Source: a virus
Length of the DNA stretch: 36,544 bases
Virus record (IMG/VR): IMGVR_UViG_3300045921_000116
Location: 1-36,544 of that record
Reading direction: 5' to 3' (one strand)
Made by a program: the position numbers and the translations under genes. Below, piece by piece: positions 711 to 29,941 of the stretch; the stretch's first letter is position 1, and every line of letters starts with the position of its first letter. Below the pieces are notes generated by a model. That model was not told the DNA's origin. It did not search any database and saw only the letters and a list, made by a program, of their open reading frames with translations.

Positions 711-749
711 ATAAAAAATAAGACCGGTCAGTGATTACTAACCGGTCTT
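711..749 (-). terminator. Rho-independent terminator after the Mre11-Rad50 fusion gene, possibly bidirectional
   Basis: The arms AAGACCGGT (720-728) and ACCGGTCTT (741-749) are perfectly complementary with a 12-nt loop. On the minus strand the stem is followed by ATTTTTTATC, a good U-tract. The plus side also has a T-run, so it could act both ways. Confidence 0.85.
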
Positions 750-767
750 ATCTTTTTATTTGTGAAT

Positions 768-3700
768 TTATACCAATCTAATGTAAGAGAATCCATCTTC
801 TCTCTTAATTTCAATCAAATTTTCAGCAATATCTCTAACAACATCTAAATGAGATATCAAAATCAAGAATTCAAACTCTTCCTTTAACATATTAAACAAC
901 ATAAAGATGGAAGAAAGATTATCACTATCCAATACTCCCAATCCTTCGTCGATTATGATAAAGTTGGCTCTAGGAAGACTACTAACCTTCATCAATCCTA
1001 TACGAATTGCTAAACTACTGATGAACTTCTCCATACCTGATGCCAACTCTAGAGGCCAGGTTCTATTGTCATCATACACAATTTTACCGTTAATATTTTT
1101 ACCGTCAATTTCCATAAGAATCTGGAAATCTACTAATTGAGATAAGATATTATTGACTGTGCCTTCTAAACTTGGGATAATCTCAGAAATGAGTTGATAT
1201 GGTAATCCATCCCGACTAATAGCGTTCATATAATATTCGTAAGCATCATAAACTGATTCTAATTCTTCTGCCTCACGAATCTTTGATAGCATCTCATCTT
1301 TACGATGTTGTAATACCTTCAATTTACCTTCTAGAGATCGAATATTAGTTAGTAAACTCTTATGTTGAGTCTCAAACTTCATTTTCTCACTCTTTAATAA
1401 TGAAATTTCATTATTAAGTTCATTATTGATTTTTACATCTTCTATAGCCTTATTGTATCTATCTAAAAGTTCTACTGATTTTTGTTTTGTTAAAATAGAT
1501 GATTGAATAGAATTTTCAATTTTTTTAATAGTACTTTCAATATCAGATATTTTATTCTTTGCACTCAAAATAGAACTAGTAAGATTTTCATTACTTTCTA
1601 GTTGATTAGTAATTTTTTCTATCTTTTGTTGAGTCCACAATGAACTCTTATAGTCTAACAACTTTTGTAATTCTAATTCTGCCGCCGGCAAGTCTAATCG
1701 AGCTTTTTCAGCGTCTTTTACAAAGATATTGTTAACACAGTACTTACAATTTGGATCGTACTCGTGATATTGTAAAGATTCTATTTTGTGTTCTAACTCT
1801 TTGATTTTGTGCTTCTTACGAGTAATATCTTGGTCAATTTTTGTATGCTGCTGAATTTGATATTTCAGTTCTTCTCTAGTAGATGGGTCAATCTCAATAA
1901 TTGAACGTTCCATCTCTTTAATCTTATCTAGATAAGACTGTTTTATATTAGAATTTTCTAATAATGATTTTTGATATGCTTCTATCTTTTTATCAGTTTC
2001 AGTAATTAGATCATTAATTTTACTTGGATTTACACTTTCCAATACATCATCAATTGGAATCTTTTTTTCATACTTTTGTGAAATTAACTCATTTAGATCA
2101 TTAATAACTTTGTGTAGATTTATTTGTTTTAATTCTTGATCTTGTAACTCAATATTCAAAGAATCTATAGAATTTTGAACATCTACCAATTCTTGAGTAA
2201 AATCATCTTTGTTAAACCGCTTTAATGCGCCTGTTAACTCTTTTACCTCGGTAGATGCAAGATCATACAATCTATCAAATATTGTCAATCCAAGAAATTG
2301 ACTGAGTAAGTCTTTACGATCAGACTGTCCTTTGTCAATAAATAAGCTATTTTGGTTTTGAACACTCAGATTAGTCAAAATAAAATCATCATAACTACCG
2401 ACATATGATCGAATTATATGATTAGTGTGACGACGATCCTCACCATTTAGAGTAGTGTATGAACCATCTTCTTCTAATCGCATAAAGTCTACATCTACTT
2501 TTACTTCACCATTCTTTTTACGTTCACCTTTACGAATAATTTTATATTGTACATTATGAATTTCAAAATCAAATTCACAATAGCAATAATTCGCACGGGT
2601 GTTCATAATATGACTGCCCTTAAACGCACGGGGTGTCTTATCATATAGAGCAAAACACAGAGAATCAAATGCACTTGTTTTGCCGGTGGCATTAGGACTA
2701 AATACCCCATACAATCCTTTCATATCAGAAAAGTTTATTTCATTGCCTTCTCCATATGAGAATAGATTATCAAACTTTAAACGTAGTGGTCTCCAAACAA
2801 CACTACGAGGTAAATCATCCTCTACCAACTTCGCATTTAATTGTTTATTAATTTCAAAAATACGCTCCAATATTTCCTGAGAGGTATTAGGATAATTTAA
2901 TAGTATATAGTCTGATATTAAAGCATTTTGATACTGTACATCATGAATGTTTTCCGTTGAAGCTGTACTAGAGGAAGATATTGTAGTAGAATCTGGTATT
3001 CTATTTACCGTTAGTTCTACTACATTCATTTGTTTACGGATTAATGCTGTTAATTTCTTAATTCCGCTTGTATCCAAATTAGCCGTAAACAATCTAACAC
3101 GAACATTCTTTGGAATCTTATTTAGTGTTGGAATTTTACCATCAGTTGTTCTGATAGTCAAATATCCATAATCATTTTCAACTTCATTAAAAGAAGGAGT
3201 TCGTGAAGTAACTTCCCACTCAATATAACCGTGATTTTCTAAAGTTTCACCGTGGTTCTGTTGTATTAAACTACCCGGATAAGCCACGACTGGATTTTCT
3301 GTCTTAAGATATTGATGCCTGTGAATATCGCCCAACAACACGATATCAAAACCGTCAAAGTCATCAACACTAACAGAACGAGAAGAAACAACATATCCAA
3401 CATCAGTTTGCGCATTGTGTACAGGCCCGTGAAAAAGTGCAATTTTAGTAGAAGCAGTACAATCACTAGATGTAGGCCAGTCTACTCTATCATCCAATAT
3501 AGACATCACTGCAAAATCTACATCAGCAAAACGATATACTCCACTATTACGTAAATAGTGTAGATTTGAATTTTTCAAATTGTTAACTATAGGACTTAAA
3601 CTGTCCAATCTATTGATATTGGACATATTAAAGTCGTGGTTACCAGCAATAATAATAGTAGGTGCTATATTAGCAAGAGAATTTAAAAATTCACTAGCTA

Positions 3701-3914
3701 ACTGCACCATTTCTGGGCTCAAATCTGTTTTAGAATGTAGAATATCACCAGCAACTACTATAGCAGTATTGGTATTTTTATATTTTTCTAATTGTCTATA
3801 TAGATTTTCAAATGTAAATCGATATTCCGCGTGACGTTTATATAATCGTATATGAATATCAGCAAGATGTATTATTTTTTCTAGTTTATCAAAATCTGTT
3901 GGTATTACTTTCAT
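768..3914 (-). CDS. Fused Mre11-Rad50 (SbcD-SbcC, T4 gp47-gp46 type) recombination nuclease in one polypeptide
   Basis: This 1048-residue protein begins with a calcineurin-like nuclease domain showing the Mre11 motifs: ADIH (D19, H21), AGD (D57), GNHD (N92, H93), FHGPVH (H162, H166) and GDIHRH (196-200). After about residue 370 comes a Rad50/SbcC ATPase: a P-loop at about 406-413 (SPNATGKT), a long coiled coil from about 570 to 900, a zinc-hook CKYC (C723, C726) at its apex, an ELASGMEKF signature-like segment, and Walker B IIIDE (D989, E990) with D-loop GVLDSDN. In T4 the two halves are separate genes, 47 and 46; together they resect DNA ends for recombination-dependent replication. The fusion is uninterrupted in the sequence. 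The P-loop deviates from the usual GxNGxGK(S/T). The stop of the primase gene lies 1 nt upstream of this start. Confidence 0.93.
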   Translation of the reverse strand: MKVIPTDFDKLEKIIHLADIHIRLYKRHAEYRFTFENLYRQLEKYKNTNTAIVVAGDILHSKTDLSPEMVQLASEFLNSLANIAPTIIIAGNHDFNMSNINRLDSLSPIVNNLKNSNLHYLRNSGVYRFADVDFAVMSILDDRVDWPTSSDCTASTKIALFHGPVHNAQTDVGYVVSSRSVSVDDFDGFDIVLLGDIHRHQYLKTENPVVAYPGSLIQQNHGETLENHGYIEWEVTSRTPSFNEVENDYGYLTIRTTDGKIPTLNKIPKNVRVRLFTANLDTSGIKKLTALIRKQMNVVELTVNRIPDSTTISSSSTASTENIHDVQYQNALISDYILLNYPNTSQEILERIFEINKQLNAKLVEDDLPRSVVWRPLRLKFDNLFSYGEGNEINFSDMKGLYGVFSPNATGKTSAFDSLCFALYDKTPRAFKGSHIMNTRANYCYCEFDFEIHNVQYKIIRKGERKKNGEVKVDVDFMRLEEDGSYTTLNGEDRRHTNHIIRSYVGSYDDFILTNLSVQNQNSLFIDKGQSDRKDLLSQFLGLTIFDRLYDLASTEVKELTGALKRFNKDDFTQELVDVQNSIDSLNIELQDQELKQINLHKVINDLNELISQKYEKKIPIDDVLESVNPSKINDLITETDKKIEAYQKSLLENSNIKQSYLDKIKEMERSIIEIDPSTREELKYQIQQHTKIDQDITRKKHKIKELEHKIESLQYHEYDPNCKYCVNNIFVKDAEKARLDLPAAELELQKLLDYKSSLWTQQKIEKITNQLESNENLTSSILSAKNKISDIESTIKKIENSIQSSILTKQKSVELLDRYNKAIEDVKINNELNNEISLLKSEKMKFETQHKSLLTNIRSLEGKLKVLQHRKDEMLSKIREAEELESVYDAYEYYMNAISRDGLPYQLISEIIPSLEGTVNNILSQLVDFQILMEIDGKNINGKIVYDDNRTWPLELASGMEKFISSLAIRIGLMKVSSLPRANFIIIDEGLGVLDSDNLSSIFMLFNMLKEEFEFLILISHLDVVRDIAENLIEIKREDGFSYIRLV

Positions 3915-3915
3915 A

Positions 3916-4833
3916 TTATTCTTTCATTTTAAGTTCTACAATTTTAGAGTATGTTATTGGTTCCGCAGATTTGTATAAATTAACAAATTTTTCAAACCCC
4001 AATTCAGATGGATCTTTTTGCGGAAGTTCTATCATATATGTGACCAAACCTTCATTCACAAATGATTGAGCTATCTTTAATGCACTAGAAAGAGCATCGT
4101 TATCTAACGCAATATAAACAGCCGGTGGACGCTTTTCAAGTATAGCATCCTTTAATCGTTTCATTAATATTTTACCGCTCAGAGGTATAGCATTACGTTT
4201 TACTGCTATTGCGTCAAATGCTCCTTCAACCAACGTAATTGGATAATTCCAATTAATTGTATTCTCAAACATAATTACATCTTTACGAACCGGCGGATAC
4301 AAGTAATTTTGCATCCCTTCAAAAAATGATCTAGCAGTAAAATAGTTTAACTTATAATCCTTGTCATATGATGGTATAATAATACGATCTGCAAATTTTC
4401 CAGTTTCACAATATCCAATATTATATTTTATAATATCATATGCAGTCAATCCTCTATTTTTAAGATAGACCATTGCGTGTTTATATTTTATTGAAGAAGT
4501 AGGCTTAACCAATGATTGAAATTCATAAGGCAATCTAAGTTCAACTTCTTCTTCTTTGTGTTTTACTACATATGGAATATCATCAGCAAGAAGTTCTCGC
4601 AATTGTAAAATTTCACGCTGATCGAAATTAAGTCTGCGCGCCAAAGAAAGTAATCTATTTCCAGAGGCATTACACTTCCAACAATGCCATTTACCTTTTA
4701 CCAAATTAACTGCTAATTTTGGTTTATGGTGTTGGCAAAATGGACAATAAAAATAATATTCTCCATTGGAGAATTGTTTATTTTCACCAAGTACACTTGA
4801 AAATATTTGATATAGTTTGTCTACTTTAGACAT
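3916..4833 (-). CDS. Small DNA primase with zinc finger and TOPRIM domain
   Basis: The protein of 305 residues would lay RNA primers for lagging-strand synthesis. A zinc ribbon near the N-terminus uses C30, C33, C51 and C54 (CPFC ... CWKC), like the CHC2 finger of DnaG-type primases. A TOPRIM catalytic region follows, with the VEGAFD glutamate motif at about 202-207 and LDNDA (D244, D246). No helicase domain is present, so it probably works with a separate phage helicase. A GTG at 4848 in the same frame could start a longer form, but the GGAGGA just before the ATG at 4833 makes that ATG the better choice. That Shine-Dalgarno sits inside a 14-bp hairpin described separately. Confidence 0.88.
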   Translation of the reverse strand: MSKVDKLYQIFSSVLGENKQFSNGEYYFYCPFCQHHKPKLAVNLVKGKWHCWKCNASGNRLLSLARRLNFDQREILQLRELLADDIPYVVKHKEEEVELRLPYEFQSLVKPTSSIKYKHAMVYLKNRGLTAYDIIKYNIGYCETGKFADRIIIPSYDKDYKLNYFTARSFFEGMQNYLYPPVRKDVIMFENTINWNYPITLVEGAFDAIAVKRNAIPLSGKILMKRLKDAILEKRPPAVYIALDNDALSSALKIAQSFVNEGLVTYMIELPQKDPSELGFEKFVNLYKSAEPITYSKIVELKMKE

Positions 4834-4834
4834 A

Positions 4835-4879
4835 AATCCTCCATACACCTAAAATAGTGTATAGAGGATTGTTTGTCAA
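4835..4879 (-). promoter_or_regulatory. Host-type promoter nested in a 14-bp hairpin that hides the primase ribosome-binding site
   Basis: On the minus strand TTGACA (4874-4879), a 17-nt spacer and TATTTT (4851-4856) form a sigma70-like promoter. The arms AATCCTCTATACAC (4857-4870) and GTGTATGGAGGATT (4835-4848) pair over 14 bp with one G-U, and the -10 lies in the 8-nt loop. The second arm contains GGAGGA and ends 1 nt before the ATG. Predicted initiation near 4844 would drop the first arm and expose the ribosome-binding site, whereas read-through RNA from upstream genes would hide it. Confidence 0.75.
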
Positions 4880-4899: not shown

Positions 4900-5241
4900 T
4901 TAATTTTTACCAACCAAGTTCATAAAATCTTCAAGCGGCAACGCAACATAAGTTTTACTACGATTTTTCTTAAAAACTAATAATGGAATTTGTCCATCCG
5001 GTGCGTTTTGTTCAGCCTGCTTTAGAGCAGACCAAACATTAAGTTTTTCTACATTTTTACATTCAACAGAATATGGAAATACCGCACGAGCGGCCGGGGA
5101 AAGTTTTATATCTTGCCCCGATTCACTCATAATAGCAACTTTTACATCATCTTTTTCAAGTGTTGGATAATGTTCTAAGATTATTTTTTGAACTTCTTGT
5201 TGTAACCGGCGACCTTTTGCCTTTGCTGAACTTGTTTTCAT
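4900..5241 (-). CDS. Small PD-(D/E)XK nuclease, Holliday-junction-resolvase-like
   Basis: A 113-residue basic protein with the layout of minimal PD-(D/E)XK nucleases: an N-terminal helix with a conserved-looking glutamate (E16), SGQDIKLSP (D44), then YSVECKN with the E60-x-K62 pair, and a following helix SALKQAEQNA. These are the expected metal- and DNA-binding positions. The family includes Holliday junction resolvases and VRR-NUC enzymes, which cut branched DNA. Its place beside the primase and the Mre11-Rad50 fusion fits a role in replication or recombination. Which branch of the family it belongs to is not certain. Confidence 0.65.
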   Translation of the reverse strand: MKTSSAKAKGRRLQQEVQKIILEHYPTLEKDDVKVAIMSESGQDIKLSPAARAVFPYSVECKNVEKLNVWSALKQAEQNAPDGQIPLLVFKKNRSKTYVALPLEDFMNLVGKN

Positions 5242-5259
5242 ATAGACATTAAATATAGA

Positions 5260-5565
5260 TTATTTACGTGAACCTGGATTATAATACTTGTTATTTGGTG
5301 TCCATCTATTTAGGGGAACATCTGGTGCTACTGGTGTGAAAGATTGCGGAATTGTGAAATTCTGTACTCTTTTATCAAAAGAATTCAATGCATCAGTTGT
5401 AAAGGTTGTTGTACGTGTTTTATCACGTTCAACTGCAAAATTGTCAAATTCTTTTTGAATCTTGTTTTCACGATCAAAAAAGTTTACTTCATTCCCAGGA
5501 ATAGCACGAGCCTCTTTAACTCTAGGTGAATCACTGGTTTCATAACGCTTCAAAATATCAGACAT
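5260..5565 (-). CDS. Hypothetical phage protein, 101 residues
   Basis: I do not recognise this protein. It is hydrophilic, with a charged first half and a proline- and asparagine-rich second half ending in GSRK. There is no signal peptide, membrane segment or cysteine. The ATG at 5565 is preceded by TTTTTAGGAGAACTTAA, a strong Shine-Dalgarno. It is the last gene of the virion block, and the low-complexity C-terminus would suit a small structural protein, but that is inference from context only. Confidence 0.6.
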   Translation of the reverse strand: MSDILKRYETSDSPRVKEARAIPGNEVNFFDRENKIQKEFDNFAVERDKTRTTTFTTDALNSFDKRVQNFTIPQSFTPVAPDVPLNRWTPNNKYYNPGSRK

Positions 5566-7533: not shown

Positions 7534-8172
7534 TTAAACTATTGGTTTTGGTTTTACGATAACTGGAACTGTTATTGTTGCACCGGTTTCGTTTCCAATA
7601 ACAGTAAGGCTTGTTTCAAGTTGCGTTAACACATCTTTTGGTGTAAACGCAAATTCTAATCCACGAGAAACAACAGCATTTGCTGTAGTAGTATCACCCA
7701 AAAAGGTAGGTACGGTTCCAGCAGAAGTTTCAGCTAATCCAGTACCAACTAATGTTCCTGCATTTGCATCATACAAAATTGCGGTATATCCAAATCCAGG
7801 ACCGTTCAATCCATTAGTTGTACTTGGTCGAATTGGTAGCGCCACCGTAGTTCCAGCAGTAACTACAATTGAATCAACACCAAGAGAAATAATTGGAATT
7901 TGTTTTGTTCCTCTTGGTAAAGTTACCAACTTATAACGCATTACCTGCGTTTCATCAGGAGATGCTTCTACAAGTGGCATATTTTCAATAATTGAACCAT
8001 AAAAAGCGGTTCCCAACGGATGCGTTGGCGTCCAAAGACCATAATCAATTTCATCGTCTGCAATTGCAAACTTAACGATTTCAAATCCCTGGCCCTTTGC
8101 CAAATATTCACGTCCTTTTTTTGTAAGAATTGCATCGATAGTTACGATGCCAGTATTGTCTAAAAATCCCAT
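7534..8172 (-). CDS. Conserved phage structural protein (MGFLDN type)
   Basis: A 212-residue protein. The N-terminal region (MGFLDNTGIVTIDAILTKKG, then YLAKGQGFEIVKFAIADDEI) is a pattern I recall in virion proteins of many marine myovirus-like phages, usually annotated only as structural. The C-terminal half is Ala/Thr/Val-rich and beta-like. The upstream gap contains a possible late promoter (minus-strand ACTATTTATA at 8199-8208) and a CGGAG ribosome-binding site. It is probably a tail or neck protein; the exact role is unknown. Confidence 0.7.
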   Translation of the reverse strand: MGFLDNTGIVTIDAILTKKGREYLAKGQGFEIVKFAIADDEIDYGLWTPTHPLGTAFYGSIIENMPLVEASPDETQVMRYKLVTLPRGTKQIPIISLGVDSIVVTAGTTVALPIRPSTTNGLNGPGFGYTAILYDANAGTLVGTGLAETSAGTVPTFLGDTTTANAVVSRGLEFAFTPKDVLTQLETSLTVIGNETGATITVPVIVKPKPIV

Positions 8173-8198: not shown

Positions 8199-8208
8199 TA
8201 TAAATAGT
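8199..8208 (-). promoter_or_regulatory. Possible late promoter element ACTATTTATA
   Basis: In the 50-nt gap before the structural gene starting at 8172, the minus strand reads ACTATTTATA, 27 nt from the ATG. It fits the looser form ACT(A/T)(C/T)TTATA of the repeated AAACTACTTATA element. Read on the plus strand it contains TATAAATA, the T4 late consensus, but no plus-strand gene follows. AT-rich 8-mers arise often by chance here. Confidence 0.35.
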
Positions 8209-12699: not shown

Positions 12700-13556
12700 T
12701 AGAAGAATGTATTTGTATCTATAGAGGGGTTAAATGAACCTCCTCCTCCAGTAACTGGAGGAGGCGGAGGTTGATTAGTAGGTGAACTTGGTGGAGTCTG
12801 TGGAGGAGGCACTGTTGGTTGATCTTGTGGAATTACAGTAGTACCACCTACTACAGCTAAAGTAGCCACAGTATTAACAACTGTTAATCCGGATACATAA
12901 TTTTCTAAATCAGCTGGATTAAATGAAACTTCTACAGTACGTTCTTCTTTTGGTTGAAGAACTATTGATTGAGGTGTAAAAATTACCCCAGGTAAAGTTT
13001 CAAAACCAACAGATATCACCAAATTTGGGTCAGTATTAGTAACTGTCAAATTTTGAGGAGTGGGTACAGAATTGGTTCCCTTTACATAGCTTGTTTGTAA
13101 TTCAGATGCATCAAATTGTATTATTTGATCTAAAAATAGATCTTCTGCGAGTCTTACAGGTTCCCATTTAACTCTTATAACACCTGGACCGGTATGATTA
13201 AAATAATCAATTTTAATATTTTTTAATCCTGATGTCTGAATGGGAATTGGTTGCGGTCGTATTAAACCGGGTGCAGTTGTAGTATCAAAACGATCTATTA
13301 TTTTTACGCCATCAATAAAAACTCGTACCCCGTCATCAGAAAATATTTCAAACTGGTAGTTACCAGCTTCTAAAAAAAATGCTCCCTGAAATACAATAGT
13401 AGTATGTTCAGTAATATTATTGTAATTTATTTCTTGTATGTTTCTTGATATCGTTGGTCGTTGAGCCACAATACTCTCATAACTTCTACGACCTGTATTA
13501 AACAGACCTGTTCTGTCTAATATATCTCCGCTAAACCTAGTTTCTGTCCATGTCAT
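12699..13556 (-). CDS. PA14-domain virion adhesin
   Basis: The first about 145 residues form a PA14/GLEYA-like beta-barrel: FQGAFFLEAGNYQFEIFSDD, GVRVFIDGVKIIDRF and KNIKIDYFNHTGPGVIRVKW carry the expected SDDGxRxFIDG core and terminal W. PA14 domains bind carbohydrates in many bacterial and yeast adhesins. Residues about 150-235 look like an immunoglobulin-like or ASH-type strand domain (VISVGFETLPGVIFTPQSIV, RTVEVSFNPADLENYVSGL), and the C-terminus is Pro/Gly-rich. The 285-residue protein overlaps both neighbours by a few bases. A host-binding role at the baseplate is inferred. Confidence 0.78.
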   Translation of the reverse strand: MTWTETRFSGDILDRTGLFNTGRRSYESIVAQRPTISRNIQEINYNNITEHTTIVFQGAFFLEAGNYQFEIFSDDGVRVFIDGVKIIDRFDTTTAPGLIRPQPIPIQTSGLKNIKIDYFNHTGPGVIRVKWEPVRLAEDLFLDQIIQFDASELQTSYVKGTNSVPTPQNLTVTNTDPNLVISVGFETLPGVIFTPQSIVLQPKEERTVEVSFNPADLENYVSGLTVVNTVATLAVVGGTTVIPQDQPTVPPPQTPPSSPTNQPPPPPVTGGGGSFNPSIDTNTFF

Positions 13557-14389
13557 ACAATTTCAAACCTCGGATCAATTTCGTAATTTTGCTGCATTTC
13601 TCTTATTGTATCCACCAATGCTATATCAATATATTCTAAAAATTCTGAACGCTGAATTTGATAATTCTGTATATCACGTTTCATATTATCAATAGTTCTT
13701 CTATAAATACGAGTTGTAAGAGTTTTAAACAATAATTCAAAAGATTCCACTGCACCCGCATTTACTAATGCTTGTCCAATATCTCTAACAACTTGTTCTA
13801 TAGAAGATAATAAATCTTCTATAGTTAAGACTTCACCTTCCAAAGTTGTTTCTTCAAATACATCTTCAACACCAAGAGTTTGTGCCAATAAACCTTGTGC
13901 TTCTAATTTTGGAATTGATGGTGTAACAAAATCTAGTATTTCTTGCTTAATTTCTTCCGTGGTATCAAATGGTTTTAATTTTATTTCAGTTCTATCAGTT
14001 GAAATATCAGTTAATACCAACTTATTACCTTCAGCACTACCAACTTCATTTCTAAAAAAATGTATAGTAGTAGTATAAGTACCAACATCAAGCATAGCTA
14101 TCTTATTAGCTACATCAGCTATATTAATATTGGTGAATTCCCATATACCAGTATTATCTACAACAGTTGTAAGTTTTAACGCTGGGTTATCTACTGGTAT
14201 TATAGCCTTAGATGCATACGTACCATCTGTATTATATACCCACATTTCGATGTGATCTTTTGGATTCGTGCCAAATAACACAGTCGATTTAGTAGGCACT
14301 AATAGTCTTTCTTGACTTGCCAATAATTTAGAAGGCCTTTCTTCTGATAAATTTGTAATTCGATTTGGATAATTACTCTGCTTTGCCAT
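13553..14389 (-). CDS. Baseplate-associated structural protein, 278 residues
   Basis: The first about 145 residues look like a beta-sandwich (STVLFGTNPKDHIEMWVYNT, IWEFTNINIADVANKIAML, TYTTTIHFFRNEVGS). The remainder is helical and acidic (IEDLLSSIEQVVRDIGQALV), finishing with NYEIDPRFEIV. I have seen this general type in baseplate operons of marine T4-like phages but cannot give a T4 gene number. It overlaps the next gene by 4 nt and lies between the DNRLRE-type gene and the PA14 gene, so it may connect wedge proteins to adhesins. Confidence 0.65.
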   Translation of the reverse strand: MAKQSNYPNRITNLSEERPSKLLASQERLLVPTKSTVLFGTNPKDHIEMWVYNTDGTYASKAIIPVDNPALKLTTVVDNTGIWEFTNINIADVANKIAMLDVGTYTTTIHFFRNEVGSAEGNKLVLTDISTDRTEIKLKPFDTTEEIKQEILDFVTPSIPKLEAQGLLAQTLGVEDVFEETTLEGEVLTIEDLLSSIEQVVRDIGQALVNAGAVESFELLFKTLTTRIYRRTIDNMKRDIQNYQIQRSEFLEYIDIALVDTIREMQQNYEIDPRFEIV

Positions 14390-29079: not shown

Positions 29080-29277
29080 TTACCTCTCACGTAACATATT
29101 TAATTTGAACTGAATATGTTTGTTCAAATTCTTAGTTACCCATAAATACGATTGAGGTAGTTGTTTCTCTAAGTTTTTTACGTATTGTATAGCAGAATGT
29201 AAATGACCAACAGTATTACAACTAAATATAACTTTTACAGCTTTGTTGTAAGCTACGAAAATTTCAGGTTGATACAT
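29080..29277 (-). CDS. Hypothetical protein, 65 residues
   Basis: Not recognised. The protein reads YQPEIFVAYNKAVKVIFSCN and ends with a basic helix (NLNKHIQFKLNMLRER). Its Shine-Dalgarno AGGAG lies in the 3' arm of a perfect 8-bp hairpin at 29284-29307, so its translation could be controlled by RNA folding. It ends 2 nt before the next gene. Confidence 0.6.
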   Translation of the reverse strand: MYQPEIFVAYNKAVKVIFSCNTVGHLHSAIQYVKNLEKQLPQSYLWVTKNLNKHIQFKLNMLRER

Positions 29278-29283
29278 CTTTAA

Positions 29284-29307
29284 ACTCCTATGAGAAACTA
29301 TAGGAGT
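29284..29307 (-). promoter_or_regulatory. Hairpin hiding a ribosome-binding site
   Basis: The minus-strand arms ACTCCTAT and ATAGGAGT pair perfectly over 8 bp around AGTTTCTC. AGGAG in the 3' arm is the ribosome-binding site of the gene starting at 29277. No promoter was seen in the loop. Without a U-tract it is not a good terminator. Confidence 0.6.
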
Positions 29308-29315
29308 CTAGTCTC

Positions 29316-29579
29316 TCATTTCTTTAAATATGAATAAGAAGATGCAACTTTATATAGTTCTTCAATAACCCTTCTTCGTTCAACAAGAACCAATTCTTTT
29401 GCACGAATTTTTTCTAATTGTTCGTCTATGTCAGATATTTCAAGATCATAGCTTGCTATTATTGCATTAATAATATCAATAGAAGGCTTCGGAGTAACCT
29501 TTTGATTTTCTGGTACTGTAACCGTTCGTGTTTTAACTTCTTTTTTCTGTTCTGTGTTTTTTGGTATTAGTTTAATCAT
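29316..29579 (-). CDS. Small coiled-coil protein, 87 residues
   Basis: The C-terminal two thirds form a charged helix (IASYDLEISDIDEQLEKIRA, KELVLVERRRVIEELYKVAS) typical of a coiled coil; the N-terminus is Lys-, Thr- and Pro-rich. No known family. The start follows the tmRNA end by about 20 nt and lacks an obvious Shine-Dalgarno (CCAATCTTAATAT), so it may be poorly translated or start elsewhere. Confidence 0.5.
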   Translation of the reverse strand: MIKLIPKNTEQKKEVKTRTVTVPENQKVTPKPSIDIINAIIASYDLEISDIDEQLEKIRAKELVLVERRRVIEELYKVASSYSYLKK

Positions 29580-29599
29580 ATATTAAGATTGGTTGTGAG

Positions 29600-29941
29600 T
29601 GGACCTGGCGGGAGTCGAACCCGCGTCCGAGCATGCTTCTTATTAAACATTTATGCACATAGTTCTTTGTATAATTTAATCTGTTTCTAACCAAAGAACA
29701 AATATAAAACAGACATAGGAAAGTTGTGTATCGTTTTAGTTACTTCCCATCACTAAAACTATACCGTGAAACTGAATGAATTACTCTTACACGGTTGGGA
29801 GTAATTCATCAAGCCGCGAGCCTAAGCTCAAGCAGCGAGGGCGTATTCGTTATTGCCAGTTATAGTTTTTGGTATTTTTACTGATGTACCAATCAGATGC
29901 AAAGTTTAATCCTCCACAGCCCGTCGAATCCATACAGGCCC
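29600..29941 (-). ncRNA. ssrA: tmRNA (one-piece)
   Basis: The RNA is 342 nt. GGGCCTG at its 5' end pairs with CAGGTCC at its 3' end to form the tRNA-like acceptor, and GTATGGATTCGACGGG follows as in standard tmRNA. The T-arm reads GCGGG TTCGACT CCCGC. The tag frame (29828-29857) is GGC AAT AAC GAA TAC GCC CTC GCT GCT TGA, giving GNNEYALAA. The 3' CCA is not encoded. The RNA rescues stalled ribosomes together with SmpB, for which I see no gene in the window, so host SmpB is probably used. The tag ends in the usual ALAA signal for ClpXP and related proteases. A promoter inside an 11-bp inverted repeat lies just upstream. Confidence 0.93.

Follow-up and report, generated by a model that had tools for sequence, protein, structure and literature searches.

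A hairpin embedded in the primase promoter of a phage is predicted to hide the primase ribosome-binding site in read-through RNA

We analysed a stretch of viral DNA of 36,544 nucleotides (IMG/VR record IMGVR_UViG_3300045921_000116, positions 1 to 36,544; the whole stretch is hereafter called the window) and found that its primase gene follows a promoter that, judging from predicted RNA structure, quite probably masks its own gene, so that primase would be made only from RNA of its own promoter and not from late read-through RNA. The spacer between the -35 and -10 boxes would double as an anti-Shine-Dalgarno arm. RNA entering from upstream genes would have both arms, fold into a 15-pair hairpin and hide the primase ribosome site, giving little primase, while RNA begun at approximately position 4844 would lack the 5' arm and leave the site open to be translated. 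Because the promoter is of a class found before replication genes, and late transcription is probably part of what comes in from upstream, an early replication gene would thereby be kept silent in RNA that reads through late. This reading builds on the layout, predicted structure, promoter class and gene order at the primase, together with the recurrence and covariation of hairpins in relatives.

The primase is a DnaG-type protein of 305 amino acids with a CHC2 zinc finger (positions 3916-4833, minus strand; phrog_47, E = 6e-41), and its ATG occupies 4833-4831. Upstream on the same strand are a RusA-like/PDDEXK gene (4900-5241) and gene X (5260-5565, N-terminal resemblance judged by eye), and the downstream conserved neighbor is an SbcCD-like fusion (768-3914, minus strand). 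The nearest relatives by SbcCD (42-47% identity) retain this gene X-RusA-primase-SbcCD order. Just past the SbcCD gene, a 20-pair hairpin followed by a T-run (713-756, minus strand) is the likely terminator of the primase operon. A terminator scan found no intrinsic terminator between the RusA-like gene and the primase in the window, and read-through into the primase is therefore expected; a terminator-like site at 5606-5583 could lower late read-through toward it.

The primase promoter consists of a -35 TTGACA (4879-4874, minus strand), in a position equivalent to that seen at the primase in relatives, and, after a 17-nt spacer, a -10 TATTTT (4856-4851, minus strand). Matches to TTGACA-N17-TANNTT number six on the minus strand of the window, all running the same way as the genes, against none for the reversed pattern, and five relatives hold 47 against 1 in the reversed control; together these counts indicate that the pattern is a real promoter class of the group. 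Genes preceded by TTGACA-class promoters in relatives encode DNA polymerase, DNA ligase, UvsX, an endonuclease and primase. In 20 non-identical relatives (L107, L109, L110, L112, L113, L115, L117, L118, L120, L122, L123, L124, L126-L130, L132, L133 and L253), which keep the gene X-RusA-primase-SbcCD order, a promoter of this class stops 5-10 nt short of the primase ATG, the commonest distance being exactly 6, and its -35 box is degenerate in 4 of the 20. By this spacing their primase mRNAs should have little or no leader, and the same rule puts the start in the window at 4844 (minus strand), the seventh nucleotide past the -10. Initiation near 4844, as proposed in a first-pass annotation of this DNA, agrees with the -10 spacing and with the promoter-to-ATG distance of exactly 6 nt in most relative lineages, which places their start at the ATG itself; we infer that the primase transcript of the window begins at about this position. 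RNA from the primase promoter would start with an out-of-frame AUG (4844-4821, minus strand; MEDLCLK, then a stop) that overlaps the primase start and stands at the spacing used by the primase ATG in relatives.

The hairpin spans 4870-4835 on the minus strand, and by sequence the gene's own promoter lies within it, such that RNA from about 4844 is without the 5' arm. This arm, AATCCTCTATACACT (4870-4856), occupies the spacer of TTGACA-N17-TATTTT and bears the anti-Shine-Dalgarno TCCTC; the 3' arm, GGTGTATGGAGGATT (4849-4835), includes the primase Shine-Dalgarno GGAGGA (4842-4837), all of which is paired in the predicted fold of read-through RNA. The arms flank the -10, which lies in the loop. 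The 15-pair version of the hairpin has the loop ATTTTA (4855-4850) and continuous pairing with two G-U pairs; an alternative count gives 14 pairs, one G-U and an 8-nt loop, TATTTTAG. The latter is how the hairpin had originally been described, with TATTTT in the 8-nt loop, and letters and coordinates bear this out on the minus strand, the 15th pair being the second G-U. GGAGGA indeed lies within the second arm, which ends 1 nt from the ATG, GGAGGA itself ending 3 nt from it. As DNA, the region is a 36-bp near-palindrome with the -10 at its center, and both breaks in its symmetry correspond to G-U pairs.

Thermodynamic folding, which had been suggested as a check, gave a minimum free energy of -26.3 compared to -11.7 +/- 2.5 for shuffled sequences (z = -5.9, 0 of 200 shuffles as good; z = -6.0 on repeat), and of 6000 dinucleotide-shuffled versions of the 60-nt leader one formed a 15-pair stem. 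Among 44 gene starts folded in the window, the primase hairpin ranks as the strongest over any ribosome site. No Rfam family matched the hairpin site at gathering score, the only matches in the window being the tmRNA and tRNAs.

The predicted cost of opening the ribosome site differs between the two kinds of RNA. Opening the Shine-Dalgarno was computed to take about 15 kcal/mol in read-through RNA, whereas RNA started at 4846-4842 would need 1.0-1.6 kcal/mol with 35 nt of downstream sequence and about 5 (maximum 5.1) with 100 nt. Thus, the earlier suggestion that read-through RNA is masked and own-promoter RNA exposed is upheld in the model, at about 15 versus 1.0-5.1 kcal/mol; the cost of 5 with 100 nt downstream reflects partial re-pairing of the Shine-Dalgarno in own-promoter RNA, which counts against a clean unmasking. 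Since an opening measure limited to AUG -10 to +6 is too narrow for hairpins with the AUG in the loop, a measure spanning the ribosome-wide footprint was also used; the footprint-wide cost is 24.3 for read-through RNA and 6.3 for own-promoter RNA.

A second motif, TATTTATA, may mark late transcription that could run into the primase. It occurs before genes more often than expected (39 times versus 5.5), and ten genes preceded by it were scanned, yielding three virion families (tail tube, head-tail adaptor and virion protein) and one cytidyltransferase. In L223-L252 this putative late-promoter motif stands mostly 23-32 nt before ATGs and is the reverse complement of T4's TATAAATA, which is itself not enriched in the window. 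The window encodes a gp55-like late sigma factor and carries TATTTATA 26 nt before the ORF at 7534-8172 (8199-8206, minus strand). We read the TTGACA class as probably early and the TATTTATA class as probably late. Two genomes, L223 (G004) and L246 (G007), carry TATTTATA before gene X, about 900 nt ahead of the primase, and no terminator was found in between; gene X of the window has no TATTTATA directly in front of it.

The 20 relatives have no Shine-Dalgarno to mask, and in predicted folds several of them cover the primase start itself. In L129, the spacer supplies the 5' arm of a 20-pair hairpin (-26.9 kcal/mol, z = -6.9) whose 3' arm includes the ATG, and in the MNL group the spacer and -10 form 15-17 pairs with codons 2-7, leaving the ATG in the loop (L133, z = -5.6). 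Weaker start-covering hairpins, again with promoter DNA as the 5' arm, are found in L253, L122 and L120, and in L123 and L124 the pairing is limited to the stretch past the -10. The register also differs, with stems centered on the -10 in the window and L129 and around the ATG in the MNL group, and so do the stem sequences. Several lineages, but not all, have a structure that joins promoter and primase start, with letters and register that vary. Searches starting from the window itself returned little: a single-protein search with its primase gave no close relative, the exact hairpin pattern had no match in viral contigs, a looser pattern matched 16 unrelated stretches in viral contigs, none convincingly before a gene start, and no close relative bears the hairpin's own letters. 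Covariation is for this reason shown in the hairpins of relatives and not in that of the window. The first 80 primase relatives have mostly other promoter types, some with terminators, and so neither support nor refute the hairpin.

To determine whether the pairing in relatives exceeds chance, only the 17-nt spacer was shuffled, in nine lineages with the window left out. Real spacers pair with the primase start beyond chance (Fisher combined p = 3e-5 to 5e-5), the lineages being related and their independence therefore approximate. Control starts in the same phages gave p-values of 0.92 for RusA, 0.74 for gene X and 0.88 for SbcC, against 2e-4 for the primase in that geometry. Relatives without pairing between the arms had been named as grounds for rejecting the hairpin, and here the outcome favors it: pairing does recur, with different letters and with compensatory changes, while four lineage sets (L123/4, L126/8, L127 and L130) show no significant spacer pairing in this test. 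A promoter-wide swap test of masking cost showed no general trend (mean percentile 0.48).

A search for compensatory changes in related phages had likewise been suggested; they are present in the MNL group, and none is shown for the window's own arms. In that group the helix has 95.9% of cells paired, compared to at most 58% when it is slid. The pair 16-58 is AU, UA, GC or GU depending on the phage, and 22-52 is GC or UA; since columns 52 and 58 both fall at third positions of codons, changes in the promoter DNA are matched by synonymous ones in the gene.

This variation also bears on the reading that the palindrome is a DNA operator, in which a dimeric repressor across the -10 blocks the promoter and the RNA hairpin is incidental. 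A 36-bp near-palindrome centered at the -10 is what such an operator would look like, and in a leader this short any palindrome of that kind would take in the Shine-Dalgarno. However, both departures from symmetry in the window are G-U pairs, and at MNL columns 15, 21 and 23 the 5'-arm letter opposite a constant U is only ever A or G, which fits RNA pairing and not a DNA palindrome. Stem sequence and register differ between relatives, and unrelated palindromes at several promoters of one relative would call for several repressors; rather than one conserved palindrome common to co-regulated promoters, we find palindromes that differ between promoters and between relatives. We therefore regard an operator as improbable.

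Terminator-like hairpins precede the primase in the more distant Microcystis phage Mel-JY01 and Flavobacterium phage immuto and in L017, L061 and L076, the stems of L129 and the MNL group are followed by U-rich stretches, and the UvsX promoters of L229 and L233 sit in terminator-like hairpins, all of which would suit an intrinsic terminator halting read-through with the promoter nested inside it. Nevertheless, the stem in the window is followed by UUAUGUC, without a U-tract, and the terminator scan made no call there, which leaves this explanation very unlikely. Mel-JY01, the nearest named isolate, and immuto have a terminator plus a promoter before the primase, likely with the same aim of separation from upstream transcription, but unlike in the window the terminator is a separate upstream hairpin with a U-tract and without masking of the ribosome-binding site. 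Insulating the primase from upstream transcription looks like a common need that is met in various ways.

Stable stems between cistrons serve as RNase III sites in phage T7, and the primase hairpin resembles these in being a stable stem between cistrons that RNase III or another nuclease could cut in read-through RNA, activating or destroying the primase mRNA. For RNase III, however, 15 pairs make a short stem, and processing does not account for the placement, in hairpin-bearing relatives, of one arm (5') in promoter DNA and of the other (3') at the start codon, such that we give this reading very little credence. Chance complementarity in an A+T-rich leader can practically be discounted: 44 gene starts were examined and the window has other long stems, but chance does not sit with a z-score of about -6 and a stem found once in 6000 shuffles, with recurrence at the primase and not at neighboring genes of relatives, or with covariation.

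The preferred reading, masking of the ribosome site in read-through RNA, follows a mechanism known from T4. In T4 e (lysozyme), soc and 49, the Shine-Dalgarno or start is sequestered in long upstream transcripts and RNA from a nearby promoter lacks the 5' strand, with approximately 100-fold repression reported for the gene e hairpin (PMC3014915). Similarly, I-TevI, I-TevII, I-TevIII, segB and Aeh1 mobE have a stable hairpin at the ribosome-binding site that their own-promoter RNA cannot form, and the same review notes that in T4 this control is confined to late genes, carried on early or middle transcripts (PMC2988022). The primase hairpin is like those of e, soc, 49 and I-TevI in that the long RNA is predicted to fold over the ribosome site, within a stable helix, and RNA from the promoter between the arms is not. 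Whereas T4 e is a late gene hidden in early RNA and served by the gp55-type late promoter TATAAATA, the primase is a replication gene with a sigma70-like two-box promoter, TTGACA-N17-TATTTT, of the replication-gene class, and the RNA in which it is silenced would be late; given the lack of the late-promoter feature, we do not place it in the T4 late-gene set. I-TevI, segB and mobE are homing endonuclease genes, in contrast to a core replication gene with the promoter class of replication genes. In IS10 and IS50, RNA reading in from outside folds over the transposase start and own-promoter RNA does not; these resemble the primase hairpin in masking read-through but do so with the inverted repeats of a mobile element, not at a phage replication gene. 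Our literature search found no early phage gene or primase under such hairpin control, which is not proof of absence. What is new is the apparently reversed timing, along with the variants on nearly leaderless mRNAs and the way stem letters and register change between relatives.

We put forward, as an evenly balanced proposal, that a group of large phages guards its early-gene primase from late read-through translation by promoter-embedded hairpins re-invented in each lineage, over the Shine-Dalgarno in the window or over the start and first codons in near-leaderless relatives. If true, the T4 hairpin logic, there applied to late genes, would also hold for an early replication gene and for near-leaderless mRNAs, and a regulatory structure would keep its place and function as its letters are replaced, a case that ordinary sequence comparison misses. 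It would also offer a compact natural design for genes answering only to their own promoter and raise the testable question of why primase synthesis should be stopped late in a phage infection.

Other early promoters, such as those of UvsX and the endonuclease, may share the design. We also asked whether palindromes are general to the TTGACA promoter class; pairing gave z = -4.3, yet a shifted control (+90) was equally strong, and class-wide embedding in hairpins is therefore not claimed. Single promoters in L224, L228, L229 and L233 are nevertheless striking as embedded hairpins. At the promoter of a phrog_8420 gene (13232-14131) in L224 (G004; about 14133-14187, minus strand), the spacer arm CTCCGCTT pairs with the Shine-Dalgarno region AAGCGGGG around the -10, with a masking cost of 17.3 kcal/mol versus 2.9 for its own RNA; this arrangement is not retained in the gene's orthologues. 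In L229 and L233, the promoters of UvsX-like genes and of a MSLNIAALKAKLNQF gene have their -10 in a palindrome's loop, and the palindromes at the UvsX-like promoters are terminator-like and differ in letters between the two phages. A different palindrome, TTGTCACAAAT...ATTTGTGACAA around a TATATTTG box, is found some 30 nt ahead of the primase ATG in L137, L156, L157, L159 and L160, with a matched change from GTCAC/GTGAC to GTAAC/GTTAC in L166, L178 and L180.

Elsewhere in the window, a complete tmRNA with the tag GNNEYALAA lies at 29597-29941 on the minus strand (ARAGORN; Rfam RF00023, 130 bits). The leader of the ORF at 29080-29277 (29278-29320, minus strand) can fold into either of two hairpins that exclude each other, of which one hides AGGAG and the other frees it (minimum free energy -13.8, with the alternative as centroid at -11.5), making it a possible switch. 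Finally, a gene for a biopterin-dependent aromatic amino acid hydroxylase (PF00351, E = 1e-48) is present in this phage at 33695-34405 on the minus strand.
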